Shown: one piece after another, positions 12,603-29,743 of the stretch | How positions within the stretch are numbered: the first letter of the stretch is position 1 | How the letters are laid out: every line of letters starts with the position of its first letter | Source of the DNA: Candidatus Microgenomates bacterium | GTDB lineage: Bacteria > Patescibacteriota > JACPGU01 | Assembly: GCA_016188915.1 (NCBI GenBank) | Contig: JACPGU010000001.1 | Coordinates: forward strand, 1 to 34,110 | Length of the DNA stretch: 34,110 nucleotides | Reading direction: 5' to 3' | Notes under the pieces: model-generated | Databases searched by the model: none | What the model saw: the letters and a program-made list of their open reading frames with translations, nothing else | What the model was told of the DNA's origin: nothing | Made by a program: the position numbers and the translations under genes

Positions 12603-13703
12603 ATGGATTCCCAGGAAGTTTTTTATAGATTAGGCTTTGCTTTGATTCCCCAGATTGGCGCTGGCCGTGGACGCAAACTTTTGAATTTTTTCGGTTCGGC
12701 CCAAAAAGCTTGGAAGGCCGATTACGTCGACTTGCTCCAAGCGGGGCTAGAGGATGTTGCCGCCAAAGAATTAGCAGCAGGGAGAAAGCTGTTAGATCTG
12801 GGTAAAAAGATGACAGAAGTAAAAAGTTTTGGTATTCGTTTGGTTTTGCTGGAAGATGAAGAATACCCAAAGCTTTTACGGGAGATTTACAATCCTCCCT
12901 TGCTTCTTTTTGTGCGTGGACAAATTATCGATGCCGATCATTACGCGGTAGCAATAGTAGGGTCGCGTCGTTTTAGCGAGTATGGTCGACAAGCGACAGC
13001 CGATATTGTTTCACATTTGGCCGAAAACCAGGTGACGGTGGTTTCTGGATTGGCCTTGGGGATAGACAGCTTTGCCCACCAGACAGTTTTGAAAAATCCC
13101 AATGCCAGAACAATAGGGGTTTTAGGCTGTGGCATTGATGATTTGACCATATACCCTTCTGAAAATAAGAATTTGGTTCATCGTATCATAGAAGGTAGAG
13201 GAGCTATCGTTTCTGAATATCCTCCAGGCACCCCACCTCTAAAGCAGCACTTTCCGGCCAGAAATCGTATTGTTTCGGGATTGTCCCAGGGAGTAGTGGT
13301 AGTGGAAGCATCTAGCACTTCCGGCTCGCTAATTACCGCGCGGCATGCATTAGAGCAGGGGAGAGATGTTTTTGCCGTGCCGGGCAATATCTATCACAAA
13401 AATGCCGCAGGACCGAATAGTTTGATAAAATTAGGCGCTAAATTGGTGGAAAAGCCGGAAGATATTTTGGAAGAATTAGACTTGCGACAATTATCAAATC
13501 GAGTGGCAGTACAAAAAATGATACCAGAAAATCTTGACGAGCAAAAAATTTTAAGTTTTTTAGAAATAGAACAATTGCATATTGACAGATTGGTAGAATT
13601 ATCAAAACTTTCCATCAATGATCTCAATCCGCTTTTGGTGACGATGGAGATGAAGGGGCTGGTTCGCGATATGGGAGGAGGAAATTATATCGCGGTGAGA
13701 TAA
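12603..13703 (+). CDS. dprA: DNA processing protein DprA
   Basis: AIVGSRRFSEYG, VVSGLALGIDSFAH, Rossmann core and C-terminal winged helix. Confidence 0.96.
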   Translation: MDSQEVFYRLGFALIPQIGAGRGRKLLNFFGSAQKAWKADYVDLLQAGLEDVAAKELAAGRKLLDLGKKMTEVKSFGIRLVLLEDEEYPKLLREIYNPPLLLFVRGQIIDADHYAVAIVGSRRFSEYGRQATADIVSHLAENQVTVVSGLALGIDSFAHQTVLKNPNARTIGVLGCGIDDLTIYPSENKNLVHRIIEGRGAIVSEYPPGTPPLKQHFPARNRIVSGLSQGVVVVEASSTSGSLITARHALEQGRDVFAVPGNIYHKNAAGPNSLIKLGAKLVEKPEDILEELDLRQLSNRVAVQKMIPENLDEQKILSFLEIEQLHIDRLVELSKLSINDLNPLLVTMEMKGLVRDMGGGNYIAVR

Positions 13704-13727: not shown

Positions 13728-13763
13728 GACAGCAAAAAGCCCCCGGGGAGGGGACTTTCTTGT
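13728..13763 (-). terminator. Terminator of the RT gene; copy 1 of a 36-bp repeat
   Basis: Minus: AAAGTCCCC-tcccc-GGGGGCTTTTTG; 35/36 identical to 15331-15366. Confidence 0.85.
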
Positions 13764-13810
13764 TGGAGGATGTCTATGATTCCAGTAGTGAGATAGCCCA
13801 CGGAGCGATT

Positions 13811-15046
13811 TCACTGGGGTTTTGTATCGGAAAGGGGGATGGCCTTCAAATAATAAGGCTTAGCGCCAGTCATTTTCAGGAAATTAGCCATTGGTCGGCG
13901 CAATCTAGACGGCAAAAGTTTTGGCGGGAAAATACGACAGATGTGCGCCGTAATTCCCATGGCCGAACGAGACAGCTTTTCGTCGCCGGGATTCTGATAA
14001 GCGCTATGCAAAATCGCCCGAAAACGATCCTGATCCTTTCTTCGTAGGGTAATCTGTCGCCCTTCCAGCATCCTGACCGTTTGTATTGGCGGCCAATCAA
14101 TTTTCACGCGAAGACTCAAGCCCAACATTCTCGGCGAGCATTTATTTAAACGATAGTAGTGGATCTTTCCTCTGTTCACCGAGAAGGTATTGGGTTTTGC
14201 CTCTATCGCCGTCACAACTTTCTCTCGCACTTTTTTCGGGATAGGCTGATTGGACGAGATAATAATGTCGTCAGCGTAGATAGTGATAATCGGATGCTTG
14301 ATGCCATTATTTTCAAGAGCGAGATGGATTTTTTTGATTAGTCCGTCAGCATAGGTGGCGTAGACAAAAAAATCCGGAGAAGTAGGGGCGCCCTTGGGAA
14401 GAGAGTCTTTGTCGGTAATCAAGTCCACTACGGCAACAGTAAATTCATAGAGCAAATAAGTCAGATGACGATTGAGCTTGTACTGGAGAAAGTATCGGTG
14501 AAATCGACCACGAAGAAATTCTGCTTCGACATCTACGATAGATTGTCGATGCAAGAAGTGATTGCTGATGCTGGCATTAAATCGACCGCAGAGACTTTTG
14601 GAAAAAAGCTTACTTTTCTGAAACATGCTCTCCCGCCAAAGAATGCGCATCAAGGCAGGGAAGCATATTGTTATCAGAAAGTTTCTTTTTGTTGATCCGA
14701 AAGCGTTTTTCAGGTCTAGCTTGAAAAAGTATTCAGAGTCAGCGTGCGGATGGACTGCAGTCAAGATTGATTTGTTTCGCAAAAATCCATGAAAGCGATA
14801 GTAATGGTGGGTATTTGGATCAAATTTCTGAAAGACAAAATTGTCCATAAGTCTCAAGCCTATTATCCTGTGAAGCCGTTCCTGCACTACTTTCAGAATG
14901 GGAGTGGGTACCGAAATAGTATGCTTGCCCAATTTGTGGCTTCGGTAACGATCTTCGAGCAAAAGGATCTCAATGTATTCTTCTGGCGTAATATCCAGGA
15001 CTCGGCAAAGTAGTCGTTCTCCTTCAAGCAAACCTCTCTGGTCCAT
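13811..15046 (-). CDS. Retron/DRT-like reverse transcriptase
   Basis: RT1-like 'ISVPTPILKVVQERLHRII'; RT2/3 'HGFLRNKSILTAVHPHADSEYFFKLDLKNAF'; RT4 'LPKGAPTSP'; RT5 'IYADDIIIS'. Intact 411 aa. Confidence 0.93.
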   Translation of the reverse strand: MDQRGLLEGERLLCRVLDITPEEYIEILLLEDRYRSHKLGKHTISVPTPILKVVQERLHRIIGLRLMDNFVFQKFDPNTHHYYRFHGFLRNKSILTAVHPHADSEYFFKLDLKNAFGSTKRNFLITICFPALMRILWRESMFQKSKLFSKSLCGRFNASISNHFLHRQSIVDVEAEFLRGRFHRYFLQYKLNRHLTYLLYEFTVAVVDLITDKDSLPKGAPTSPDFFVYATYADGLIKKIHLALENNGIKHPIITIYADDIIISSNQPIPKKVREKVVTAIEAKPNTFSVNRGKIHYYRLNKCSPRMLGLSLRVKIDWPPIQTVRMLEGRQITLRRKDQDRFRAILHSAYQNPGDEKLSRSAMGITAHICRIFPPKLLPSRLRRPMANFLKMTGAKPYYLKAIPLSDTKPQ

Positions 15047-15113
15047 CTAGCCACCACCACCTTTCTGCCGGGATTTTTTTGAGCGAGATTTTAATATGCG
15101 AAAAGAAAAAAAA

Positions 15114-15291
15114 GGAGGGGGCAAGCAAACGCACCTTTTTTGAAACCACCCGCTACCCGCGCGAGCGGAAAGTTCCGGGGGAAATGCCGGTCCTTATAAA
15201 ATCCGTCGCAGGAAGCCCGCGACGACCCCTTTGGGGCTGGGGAGACAAATAGCACTCATCCCTTTTTCTGAGTTCTTGTCGCCCCCTCCAT
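15114..15291 (-). ncRNA. Structured RNA leader upstream of the RT (candidate msr-msd-like or DRT-type template RNA)
   Basis: Perfect 9-bp long-range inverted repeat GGAGGGGGC (15289-15281) / GCCCCCTCC (15122-15114) enclosing several hairpins; 5' end coincides with predicted +1. Confidence 0.65.
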
Positions 15292-15296
15292 AGAGT

Positions 15297-15325
15297 ATTT
15301 TACAAAAAAGACGATAAAATAGCAA
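15297..15325 (-). promoter_or_regulatory. Sigma70-type promoter for leader RNA + RT
   Basis: Minus: TTGCTA (15325-15320), 17-bp spacer, TAAAAT (15302-15297). Confidence 0.75.
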
Positions 15326-15330
15326 CTTCA

Positions 15331-15366
15331 GACAGCAAAAAGCCCCCGAGGAGGGGACTTTCTTGT
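15331..15366 (-). terminator. Terminator of the 78-aa/67-aa operon; copy 2 of a 36-bp repeat
   Basis: Minus: AAAGTCCCC-tcctc-GGGGGCTTTTTG. Confidence 0.85.
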
Positions 15367-15381: not shown

Positions 15382-15585
15382 TTACCGCTTGATTCTTTTG
15401 ATTATTGGAGAGCCAACGTGGGCCATTCTCCTGCTGTTGCATTTGGGGCAAGGGGCCTTGGTAAAAGGGATATTGAAGCCGAGGAACCGTCTTAAGACAA
15501 AATAGGTACCTTGGCAGGCGGTACATTTCGTCTGTTGCCGAGTAAGTGGCGGAGTGAATTGTACCAGGGGATTTTTTGGTATCAT
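15382..15585 (-). CDS. Small zinc-ribbon protein (67 aa)
   Basis: CxxC...CxxC (KCTACQ...PCPKCN); SD-like GAGGTG before the ATG; 13 nt after the upstream ORF. Confidence 0.7.
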   Translation of the reverse strand: MIPKNPLVQFTPPLTRQQTKCTACQGTYFVLRRFLGFNIPFTKAPCPKCNSRRMAHVGSPIIKRIKR

Positions 15586-15963: not shown

Positions 15964-18255
15964 ATGAAAAATCTGGTTATCGTAGAATCGCCGGCGAAGG
16001 CGAAAACTATTGAGAAAATGTTAGGACGGGGCTTTTTAGTTCGCGCCTCTTTTGGTCATGTCCGCGATTTGCCAAAAAGTAAACTGGGCGTGGATACTGA
16101 ACACGATTTTGAACCGCAATACTTAATTCCCGCCAAAGCCAAAAAAGTAATCAAGGAGCTGAAAGAGCAAGCGGAAAAATCTGACACAGTCTATTTGGCC
16201 ACCGACTTGGACCGTGAAGGAGAGGCGATCTCTTGGCATTTGAGCCAAGCGTTAGGACTTGGAAATCACAAATCACAAATCACAAATCACAAACAATCTT
16301 TAAAAACTAAATCAAAAACTAAATCCCAAACAAAAGAAGGTTCAGATATACAAGTTCATCGCATAGTTTTCAATCAGATTACCGAAAAAGCAGTAAAGGA
16401 AGCGGTGGCCAGCCCCAGAGAACTGGACATGAATTTGGTCAACGCCCAGCAGGCCAGGCGCGTCTTGGATCGTTTGGTGGGCTACAAGCTCTCACCTTTC
16501 CTATGGAAAAAGGTAAAAAAAGGCCTGTCTGCCGGTCGCGTGCAATCGGTGGCGGTCCGATTAATTGTAGAACGGGAAAGAGCGATAGGAGCTTTCAAAG
16601 CGGAGGAGTATTGGGAATTGACAGCGGAGCTAAAAAAATCCCAAACAAATTCTAATGACCAAAATTCAAATGGGGAGAAATTTACAGCTAAACTTCTCAA
16701 AAAGGATGATAAAGAATTAAAGGTTACCAGTAAAGAACAAGCAGACGAGATATTGCAAGATTTGGAGGGGGCGGAATATATAGTAGGAGAGGTGAGACGG
16801 AAAGAAAAAAATCGCAATCCTTCGCCACCTTTTACCACCTCCACGCTTCAACAAGAATCGGCTCGAAAGCTCGGGTTCTCGGCCAAAAAAACCATGATGT
16901 TGGCGCAGAGACTTTACGAAGGTATGGATTTGGACGCGCTCGGCCACAAGGGCTTGATTACCTATATGCGTACCGATTCCCTCAATCTCGCCCCGGAAGC
17001 AATAGAAGCCATACGGGGGAAAATCGCCCAAGATTTCGGCAAAAATTACATTCCCGAAAAACCTAATTTTTATAAAAACAAATCCAAGGGCGCGCAGGAA
17101 GCCCACGAAGCGATTCGTCCCTCCCATCCGGAACTCTCGCCTGATGAAGTGGAAAAATTTTTAGAAAAAGACGAACACCGGCTTTACTCTTTAATTTGGA
17201 AAAGAGCGTTGGCTTCCCAAATGGTGCCGGCAATTATGGACAGTACTTCGGTAGACATAGGCGCGGATAAGCGCGGATATTTATTTAGGGCGACAGGTTC
17301 AGTCATCAAATTTGACGGGTTCATTCGTGTCTATATAGAAGATATTGATGAAGACGAAAAGATAGCTGACGAGGATCGCGAGGGCTATCTGCCACCATTA
17401 GAACAAAATGAAAAACTGGATTTGGAAGAATTGCTTCCTGAACAAAAATTCACTCAACCGCCACCTCGTTTTACCGAAGCATCGTTGGTTAAAGAGTTGG
17501 AAAAAAACGAGATTGGTCGGCCTTCCACCTACGCGCCGACTCTTTCCACTATTCAAGAAAGAGGCTATGTCCAATTGGAAGAAAAAAAGTTCAAACCGCA
17601 AGAAATCGGCTTAATCGTCAATGATGTCTTGGTGGAGCATTTTCCGCAGGTAGTGGATGTCGCTTTTACTTCTCATGTAGAGGAGGAATTTGATGATATC
17701 GCCGAAGGCAAGATGGAGTGGCACGAGATGATCAGGGAATTTTGGACGCCTTTTGAAAAGAACTTGAAAGAAAAAGAAGTGGAAGTGAAAAAAGAGGATA
17801 TTATCGGTGACGAGGCGACCGATATTCCCTGTCCCAAATGTGGCAAAATGCTGGCGATCAAATTCGGCCGGTTCGGTAAATTCTTGGCCTGTACCGGATT
17901 CCCCGAATGCAAACATACTCAACCTTTGAATGAAACTAAGGATGAAGAAAAGCAACTGGAAGCGGTTAATCACGGTAATTGCGAGAAATGCGGACACGAG
18001 TTCGTCATCAAAGAGGGGCGTTTTGGTAAATTCATTGCTTGTTCCAATTATCCGGAATGCAAAAATATCAAAAATCTAGACAACAAAATCGATATGAAAT
18101 GCCCGAAGTGTAGCGAGGGCGATGTGGTGGTGAAGATGACCAAGAGACGCAAAAGATTTTGGGGGTGCAATAAATATCCTGATTGCGACTGGGCGAGCTG
18201 GGTAAATCCGCAGAAAAACGCCGATGAAGCGCAAAATAGCACAGAAAAAGAATAA
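15964..18255 (+). CDS. topA: DNA topoisomerase I with three C-terminal zinc fingers
   Basis: MKNLVIVESPAKAKTIEKMLG; LATDLDREGEAISWHL; TYMRTDS; three C-terminal Cys clusters. Confidence 0.97.
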   Translation: MKNLVIVESPAKAKTIEKMLGRGFLVRASFGHVRDLPKSKLGVDTEHDFEPQYLIPAKAKKVIKELKEQAEKSDTVYLATDLDREGEAISWHLSQALGLGNHKSQITNHKQSLKTKSKTKSQTKEGSDIQVHRIVFNQITEKAVKEAVASPRELDMNLVNAQQARRVLDRLVGYKLSPFLWKKVKKGLSAGRVQSVAVRLIVERERAIGAFKAEEYWELTAELKKSQTNSNDQNSNGEKFTAKLLKKDDKELKVTSKEQADEILQDLEGAEYIVGEVRRKEKNRNPSPPFTTSTLQQESARKLGFSAKKTMMLAQRLYEGMDLDALGHKGLITYMRTDSLNLAPEAIEAIRGKIAQDFGKNYIPEKPNFYKNKSKGAQEAHEAIRPSHPELSPDEVEKFLEKDEHRLYSLIWKRALASQMVPAIMDSTSVDIGADKRGYLFRATGSVIKFDGFIRVYIEDIDEDEKIADEDREGYLPPLEQNEKLDLEELLPEQKFTQPPPRFTEASLVKELEKNEIGRPSTYAPTLSTIQERGYVQLEEKKFKPQEIGLIVNDVLVEHFPQVVDVAFTSHVEEEFDDIAEGKMEWHEMIREFWTPFEKNLKEKEVEVKKEDIIGDEATDIPCPKCGKMLAIKFGRFGKFLACTGFPECKHTQPLNETKDEEKQLEAVNHGNCEKCGHEFVIKEGRFGKFIACSNYPECKNIKNLDNKIDMKCPKCSEGDVVVKMTKRRKRFWGCNKYPDCDWASWVNPQKNADEAQNSTEKE
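16263..16290 (+). repeat. (AAATCAC)x4 heptamer array inside topA
   Basis: Four exact copies, followed by AAAAACTAAATC x2. Confidence 0.85.
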
Positions 18256-28678: not shown

Positions 28679-28706
28679 AAAATGCCCCGCAGATGCGGGG
28701 CAAAAA
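28679..28706. terminator. Bidirectional terminator between convergent genes
   Basis: GCCCCGCagatGCGGGGC with A-tract 5' and T-tract on the other strand. Confidence 0.85.
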
Positions 28707-28744
28707 GACGGAGAGGGTAGCGCCCCCTCCCAAGGAGGACAAAA

Positions 28745-29674
28745 TTATTGAGGCGGAGGGTTCTCCTCCAAGGCCTTTTCCTTGCAAGTGGACTCATCGC
28801 CCACATACAAGGCACCTGCCGCCTCGTTTAAGCCGACGATTTTGCCGACTTTTTTCTTTTCATCGCCCTCCAGGAGGAGGGCGGTGCCGTATGCCAGGCG
28901 AAGACTTTTTCTTTTCTTCGCCACCTGAGACATACAGCCAGCTTCCGCGTATTGGACGCGGATTTCCCAGGCGCGGTAATCTTTCTCCGCCTGGGAGGCC
29001 TTGGCATTTTGCCCGAGGCGAGTCTCCACCGTGGACTGGAGGGTGTCAATTTTCCTCTCCAGAGGCGCCACTGCGGTCGCCACTTCTTCTTTGATCACCT
29101 CGCGTAGCCTTTTGCCGAAGGCGGCGAGGTGATCCTCCAACTCCTCTTGCGTCAGACTGTCCGATAGGGGCTTTACCTCCACCATCAGGACATGCCCCTT
29201 TTGGCCTGGATAGCCCAAGAGGACCATCCGGCCTTTCTTCAAAATGATGTCGCCCTCCATGGCGACATCGTGCCGGAGCCAACCGATCCCAACGGTGTGA
29301 TGTTGGGGCTGGGTTCCGTCACAGGAAATCTCCTTGAAGGTCAAGATGAAAGCCGATCCATCCTGACCTTTCGCGTAGACGCAGGCCGCGCCGTCGGTGA
29401 CGGCGATGTCGGCGTCACTCCCGAAGGGCGCTCCCAGTTGATTCAAGTCCGCGTTGGCGGTAAGAACCCCTGGAAGTATTTTCACGAAAATCCCCTGTTC
29501 GGCAGAGGCGACCGTGGCGCTGATGAAAAAAGCGCCGAGGAGAGAGAAAAACCCGAAAACGCGGGCTTTCTTCCTTCCAAAAATCTTGGCGATCATCCGA
29601 CCGAAAACGGCCGTAATGATTGCCGCGACAATCATTACGATTGCCAAAAAAACGAGTTTTTTCATCTTTTTCAC
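28745..29674 (-). CDS. Hypothetical membrane/secreted protein, GC-rich
   Basis: Minus ORF of 309 aa, N-terminal TM helices and coiled-coil middle; promoter upstream; visibly higher GC than neighbours. Confidence 0.8.
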   Translation of the reverse strand: MKKMKKLVFLAIVMIVAAIITAVFGRMIAKIFGRKKARVFGFFSLLGAFFISATVASAEQGIFVKILPGVLTANADLNQLGAPFGSDADIAVTDGAACVYAKGQDGSAFILTFKEISCDGTQPQHHTVGIGWLRHDVAMEGDIILKKGRMVLLGYPGQKGHVLMVEVKPLSDSLTQEELEDHLAAFGKRLREVIKEEVATAVAPLERKIDTLQSTVETRLGQNAKASQAEKDYRAWEIRVQYAEAGCMSQVAKKRKSLRLAYGTALLLEGDEKKKVGKIVGLNEAAGALYVGDESTCKEKALEENPPPQ

Positions 29675-29743
29675 GCGTCGCCCCTGGCGTGGGGCGTTCC
29701 TTTCAGTTTTTAAGGTTCGCTTCGCGATACCTGGTTTGAACGC

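Follow-up and report, generated by a model that had tools for sequence, protein, structure and literature searches.

A reverse transcriptase (RT) encoded between dprA and topA in a genome of Candidatus Microgenomates bacterium is a retron-type RT of retron ancestry and not a new DRT. The locus is, at odds of about three to one, a divergent solo retron, in which the leader would supply msr-msd RNA, the RT would prime near the a1 segment and hold the resulting msDNA, and no toxin gene would be linked. In the usual view, retrons are sensors built of RT and msDNA that restrain a toxin.

The stretch of DNA analysed (the window) comprises 34,110 nt from contig JACPGU010000001.1. A preliminary description had reported an intact 411-aa RT, behind a promoter-like site and a ~245-nt leader and ending in a terminator; the RT and its motifs were found, as were the site, the leader and the terminator. 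Features of the locus, in window coordinates, are as follows.

13728-13763, minus strand: terminator of the RT unit and copy 2 of a 36-bp palindromic repeat; hairpin with a T run at 13753-13728
13811-15046, minus strand: retron-type RT, 411 aa; YADD intact, AVHPH in region X, MLG in motif 7, long insert between motifs 3 and 4
15114-15289, minus strand: predicted msr-msd RNA; a1 (15289-15279) and a2 (15124-15114) pair over 11 bp, mean pair probability 0.97
15146-15168, minus strand: putative msd stem, an 8-bp hairpin with a 7-nt loop, pair probability 0.60
15204-15224, minus strand: triloop hairpin with a 9-10-bp stem and a CUU loop, candidate RT-recognition element of the msr, pair probability 0.99
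15225-15237, minus strand: small hairpin GCCCC-AAA-GGGGU beside the triloop hairpin, part of the predicted msr, pair probability 0.90
15267-15270, minus strand: CAGA, candidate context of the priming guanosine (G at 15268), right after the extended a1 stem
15297-15325, minus strand: promoter-like site TTGCTA-17-TAAAAT, 9 of 12 consensus matches, weak alone
15331-15366, minus strand: upstream terminator and copy 1 of the 36-bp repeat, near-identical to copy 2, closing the unit of two small ORFs
15382-15585, minus strand: 67-aa zinc-ribbon-like ORF; weak family matches below cut-offs, frame not favored by codon score
15599-15835, minus strand: 78-aa ORF, no family

Classification of the RT

The RT frame contains HGF...SILTAVHPH, LDLKNAF, LPKGAPTSP, TIYADD and MLGLSLRVKID, and the catalytic YxDD is kept (TIYADD). 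The preliminary description had likened this part of the RT to the retron NAxxH region; region X, between motifs 2 and 3, is present and retains its His, but reads AVHPH and not NAxxH. C-terminal region Y is present and aligned as well, and the position of VTG reads MLG, in agreement with the earlier report of no clear VTG after YADD. NAxxH occurs in 14 of 16 validated retrons, as does the VTG that starts region Y; Ec48, Mx65 and Vc81 are validated exceptions to the signature motifs, with VTG deviating in Ec48 and Vc81 (PMC6868368). Because two validated retrons have no Asn in region X, this residue is not strictly required (PMC6868368). VTG deviates in several CPR retrons too. As aligned, AVHPH and MLG read as substitutions inside regions that are present. 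The long insert noted between motifs 3 and 4 is real. Its position is common to three CPR relatives, L086, L087 and L093, with only faint likeness in sequence. An AlphaFold model of the RT had a mean pLDDT of 78.5 and fell below 50 at residues 148-170 and 181-190, which are parts of the insert.

The 25 PADLOC models that matched the window RT best are all retron RTs. Types X and III-A scored highest, with hits that were weak and broken into two parts by the insert; for the window, no effector was found. NCBIfam returned three retron families with scores below their cut-offs, and Pfam returned RVT_1. When the AlphaFold model was compared with PDB folds, the 18 best chains were all retron RTs, ahead of any other RT, with Ec86 and Ec67 the best matches and DRT2 and DRT9 well below. 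Ec86 (Eco1) and Ec67 (Eco2) resemble the window locus in fold, msr hairpins and a1/a2, but their effectors are present or fused to the RT, their NAxxH and VTG motifs are intact and they have no long insert.

A phylogeny had been proposed as a check, and in trees with retron, DGR and group II rows the RT was nested in neither the DGR nor the group II clade. In a 46-row tree it fell with retrons, split from DGR and group II RTs at 100/99. In a 52-row tree it belonged to a CPR-only retron clade of 25 rows (support 96/90) and grouped with L005, L085, L088, L091, L086, L087 and L093 at 88/85, which is below the strong mark. The window RT sits on a long branch. It did not form an exclusive clade with L086, L087 and L093, but such a grouping was not rejected either (p-AU 0.33). 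A DGR or group II intron RT might be expected on the grounds that CPR genomes are rich in DGRs and that the source genome seems to have one elsewhere, but the 100/99 split, the weaker fold matches to both classes, the position outside both clades in both trees and, for group II introns, the lack of any Rfam match in the window leave this explanation with a negligible probability.

The preliminary description had allowed for either a divergent retron-like or a new DRT-type system. HMMs, trees, fold and leader RNA uphold the retron-like reading in a CPR genome; the DRT-type reading was not borne out, with retron RTs taking all of the 25 best PADLOC ranks and 18 retron chains placed above the DRT2 and DRT9 folds. 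The trees covered retron, DGR and group II rows, and the exclusion of DRT, UG and Abi RTs comes from HMM and fold rankings, in which retron RTs are closer. A DRT/UG/Abi-type defence RT that used its leader RNA otherwise, for example in rolling-circle or protein-primed synthesis, would share the effector-less RNA-RT layout of DRT2 and DRT9 and would suit the altered signature motifs. We regard it as highly improbable: HMM and fold scores favor retrons by several orders of magnitude, and the a1/a2 layout and triloop hairpin described below are retron traits.

No close homolog of the window RT was found among 145 relatives, phages, plasmids, IMG/VR and GTDB genome contigs. IMG/VR matches were at best generic viral retron RTs, and a 379-genome sample of the phylum gave distant retrons only. 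Search queries A3, A4 and A5 consisted of the RT plus artificial variant rows that steered the patterns, and these rows were kept out of trees and folds. Nor did these searches yield a homolog close enough for covariation of the whole window RNA.

The predicted leader RNA

With transcription predicted to start near 15291, the leader is 245 nt long (about 15291 to 15047). Promoter-like sites of the quality of TTGCTA-17-TAAAAT are not rare, with five in the region versus 2.7 expected from shuffles. The 11-bp a1/a2 stem begins at the predicted start. It was equaled at that position by 2 of 500 shuffled sequences, anywhere in the leader by 13 of 500 and in a longer stretch by 7 of 100. In the longer-stretch test, none of 100 shuffles did as well for four of the six plasmid retrons, and the same held for one of the six DGR leaders; because that DGR leader scored like known retrons, the stem test is not decisive when taken by itself. 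Between the predicted start and a point slightly beyond a2 (15112-15291), the 180 nt have a folding energy of -78.9 kcal/mol (z -3.6; matched by none of 200 shuffles), with an end point that was picked after a2 had been seen. The whole 245-nt leader folds like its shuffles (z -0.7), and the end point therefore matters. Among 754 window stretches of 180 nt, five fold more stably, all in the GC-rich 28.7-29.5 kb, and by z-score the leader stretch ranks about 25th. Retron RNAs have complementary ends of 8-30 nt and one to three msr hairpins of 7-10 bp, a layout matched by the predicted 11-bp stem and 9-10-bp triloop hairpin. The leader is thus predicted to hold a retron-like RNA with retron layout. 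Rfam had no match for the leader or elsewhere in the window.

As a separate observation, the interval 28693-29720 has a GC content of 56%, against 42% for the window, and contains the window's most stable RNA folds; overlapping frames lie on both strands, with no Pfam match.

The triloop hairpin, whose likeness to hairpins of relatives was spotted by eye and then tested, lies 156 nt upstream of the RT. Triloop hairpins with 9-10-bp stems stand 147-183 nt upstream in the three long-insert relatives. Shuffles equaling the hairpin amounted to 0.3, 1.7, 0 and 0.7% across the leaders of the window and these relatives, while more than 8% did so for the DGR and group II leaders tested. Strong triloop hairpins occur at other positions in the leaders of some other CPR and plasmid retrons. 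The hairpins of L086, L087 and L093 are alike in sequence (GGCGGUYAG...CURGCCG), and one of their stem pairs is changed on both sides, from C-G to U-A; with the window hairpin they have only geometry and position in common. Pair counts over five hairpins gave 96% paired and changes on both sides in 7 of 10 pairs, with each row being the best hairpin of its leader, so that the high pairing arises partly by construction. In Ec86, the stem bound by region Y of the RT is 8 bp long and capped by a UUU loop (PMC6868368). By analogy, the triloop hairpin most likely represents the RT-recognition hairpin. L086, L087 and L093 also have hairpins with 6-8-nt loops near a2.

A conserved upstream RNA in homologs had been another proposed check, and structured RNA was found both in these three leaders, as the triloop hairpin, and in L005 (G183, next to gyrB). 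L005, among the closest CPR relatives, is like the window in its broad clade, RT, upstream a1/a2 RNA and lack of an effector; it differs in having no motif 3-4 insert and in keeping NATEH and VTG intact. Its RNA, of ~312 nt with a perfect 15-bp a1/a2 stem and several hairpins (z -5.5), is unmistakably a retron RNA and is longer than that of the window. A MAFFT alignment of the two RNAs was not meaningful.

Genomic setting and the search for an effector

The RT unit and two small upstream ORFs sit between dprA (12603-13703) and topA (15964-18255). On the minus strand, 5′ to 3′, the order is the 78-aa ORF, the 67-aa ORF, a terminator (15366-15331), the promoter-like site (15325-15297), the 245-nt leader, the RT (15046-13811) and a second terminator (13763-13728). 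The two 36-bp palindromic terminators are direct repeats that bracket the RT unit, with one difference between copies, and no further copy was found in the rest of the 769-kb genome with up to three mismatches allowed. Retron Ec107 (Eco5) replaces a palindromic 34-bp intergenic sequence (PMC6868368), whereas the window unit has its 36-bp palindrome on both sides and no empty single-copy site was seen. The flanking repeats may mark how the retron unit was inserted or duplicated. In G002, which belongs to the same family and is the genome where topA was located, dprA directly neighbors topA at a distance of ~0.27 kb and the island is missing; either one lineage acquired it or the other lost it. 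The repeat pair, the a1/a2-like stem and triloop hairpin, and the dprA-topA siting relative to G002 are all additions to the preliminary description.

No retron effector was recognized beside the window RT when the RT and adjacent ORFs were searched with PADLOC, Pfam and NCBIfam. The earlier statement that no standard effector is adjacent holds, and it extends to L086, L087 and L093, next to which none was recognized either. In typed tripartite retron systems (I-XIII), an effector of known type is linked to the RT or fused with it, with type definitions taken here from PADLOC names and from papers citing Mestre et al. 2020. Because no known effector was found in the RT or adjacent ORFs, the locus is filed under no retron type. 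Earlier work had already recorded retrons that lack a clear effector (PMC8867640), and its absence alone is therefore not new.

The three long-insert relatives (L086 in G656, L087 in G477 and L093 in G758) share with the window the motif 3-4 insert, the upstream triloop hairpin, the lack of a recognized effector and housekeeping-type neighbors. Their RTs are just 25-28% identical to the window RT; L086 and L087 keep NAxxH, L093 has NAHIH and these relatives keep ITG, where the window has AVHPH and MLG. None of the neighbor families of L086, L087, L093 and L005 is shared with the window. These four loci lie between unrelated, mostly housekeeping genes, among them infB, gyrB and an EF-P-like gene (translations read by eye).

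The locus could instead be a complete retron whose effector went unrecognized, encoded by the 67-aa ORF, the 78-aa ORF or a gene elsewhere in the genome. Both small ORFs lie just upstream on the RT strand and in the same island absent from G002. Small effectors do exist: one plasmid-encoded protein of 67 aa carries the annotation of a retron Se72 family effector. Zinc-finger proteins, too, have been recorded next to retrons (PMC8867640). Against this, a terminator and the promoter-like site stand between the small ORFs and the retron unit. No homolog of the 67-aa ORF was found beside any relative's RT, its one weak relative being in G023 (E 0.004), and the codon score does not favor its frame. 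Both ORFs are weak candidates for an effector, and we consider an unrecognized effector unlikely, though a serious alternative.

Decay is a further explanation, in which the RT or RNA no longer works and just the reading frame is left. The degenerate region X and VTG, the long branch and the lack of an effector would all be consistent with it. However, 411 codons are open, YADD, LPKGAPTSP and LDLKNAF are intact, and the promoter-like site, structured RNA and terminator are all in place, and we consider decay improbable.

Proposed activity and relation to other CPR retrons

If the locus is a solo retron, its transcript would start near 15291 and the 5′ part would fold into an msr-msd RNA closed by a1/a2. 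Region Y of the RT would bind the triloop hairpin, and the RT would prime on the 2′-OH of a guanosine next to a1, perhaps G15268. CAGA is the priming context in retron Ec67 (PMC6868368), although so short a motif also arises by chance. The msd part would then be copied, giving a branched RNA-DNA product (msDNA) held by the RT, and the RT-msDNA particle would act without an adjacent toxin gene, alone or with a partner encoded elsewhere. The retron ancestry of the RT, its conserved catalytic residues, the retron layout of the leader RNA, the matching hairpin in the three long-insert relatives and the lack of a recognizable linked effector are computational results. We infer that msDNA is made, where it is primed, how far the msd extends, how long the product is and that the particle acts with no toxin gene alongside.

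In a sister CPR retron clade (L059 and L100-L107; G263, G465, G476, G513, G556, G572, G624, G631 and G707), a ~380-aa AAA_5 (MoxR/CbbQ-like) ATPase was seen downstream on the RT strand in all nine loci examined, although in one locus a contig end leaves just a fragment of it. In eight of the nine, the ATPase is followed by a protein of ~600 aa that matches VWA/CobT weakly. The pair is absent from the window and from one other stretch of the source genome. MoxR-vWA couples have been described in conflict systems of other kinds, where DGRs provide the variation (PMC7159879), and a partial literature search found nothing tying them to retrons. It is possible that the pair is an unreported retron effector module.

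Other RTs were observed in the survey. A second RT in the source genome (G000:C1:187023-187418, within L065, 183000-192000) has a 341-aa frame that the RT_X model hits at 3.3e-10; its length and the partial nature of the hit suggest a DGR RT. The retron RT at L006 (G144) has YADN for YADD, with a second RT match ~7 kb away in G144, and no frame of YxDD type was seen at the matches in L014 and L015. The RTs at L006, L014 and L015 may be inactive or altered.

More tentatively, CPR bacteria could have a deep retron lineage of their own, one branch of which would carry an undescribed MoxR ATPase-VWA effector module, while the branch of the window RT would have no linked effector and, at housekeeping loci, would put RT and msDNA to some use apart from classical toxin-release defense. 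The MoxR-VWA pair of the sister clade gives such an unreported effector module a concrete candidate, and the lineage extends the variety of motifs known from retron RTs. If the RT is intact and the predicted template RNA is present but no toxin gene is adjacent, a CPR lineage of this kind, in genomes of ~1 Mb or less, would make a function of msDNA in its own right testable.
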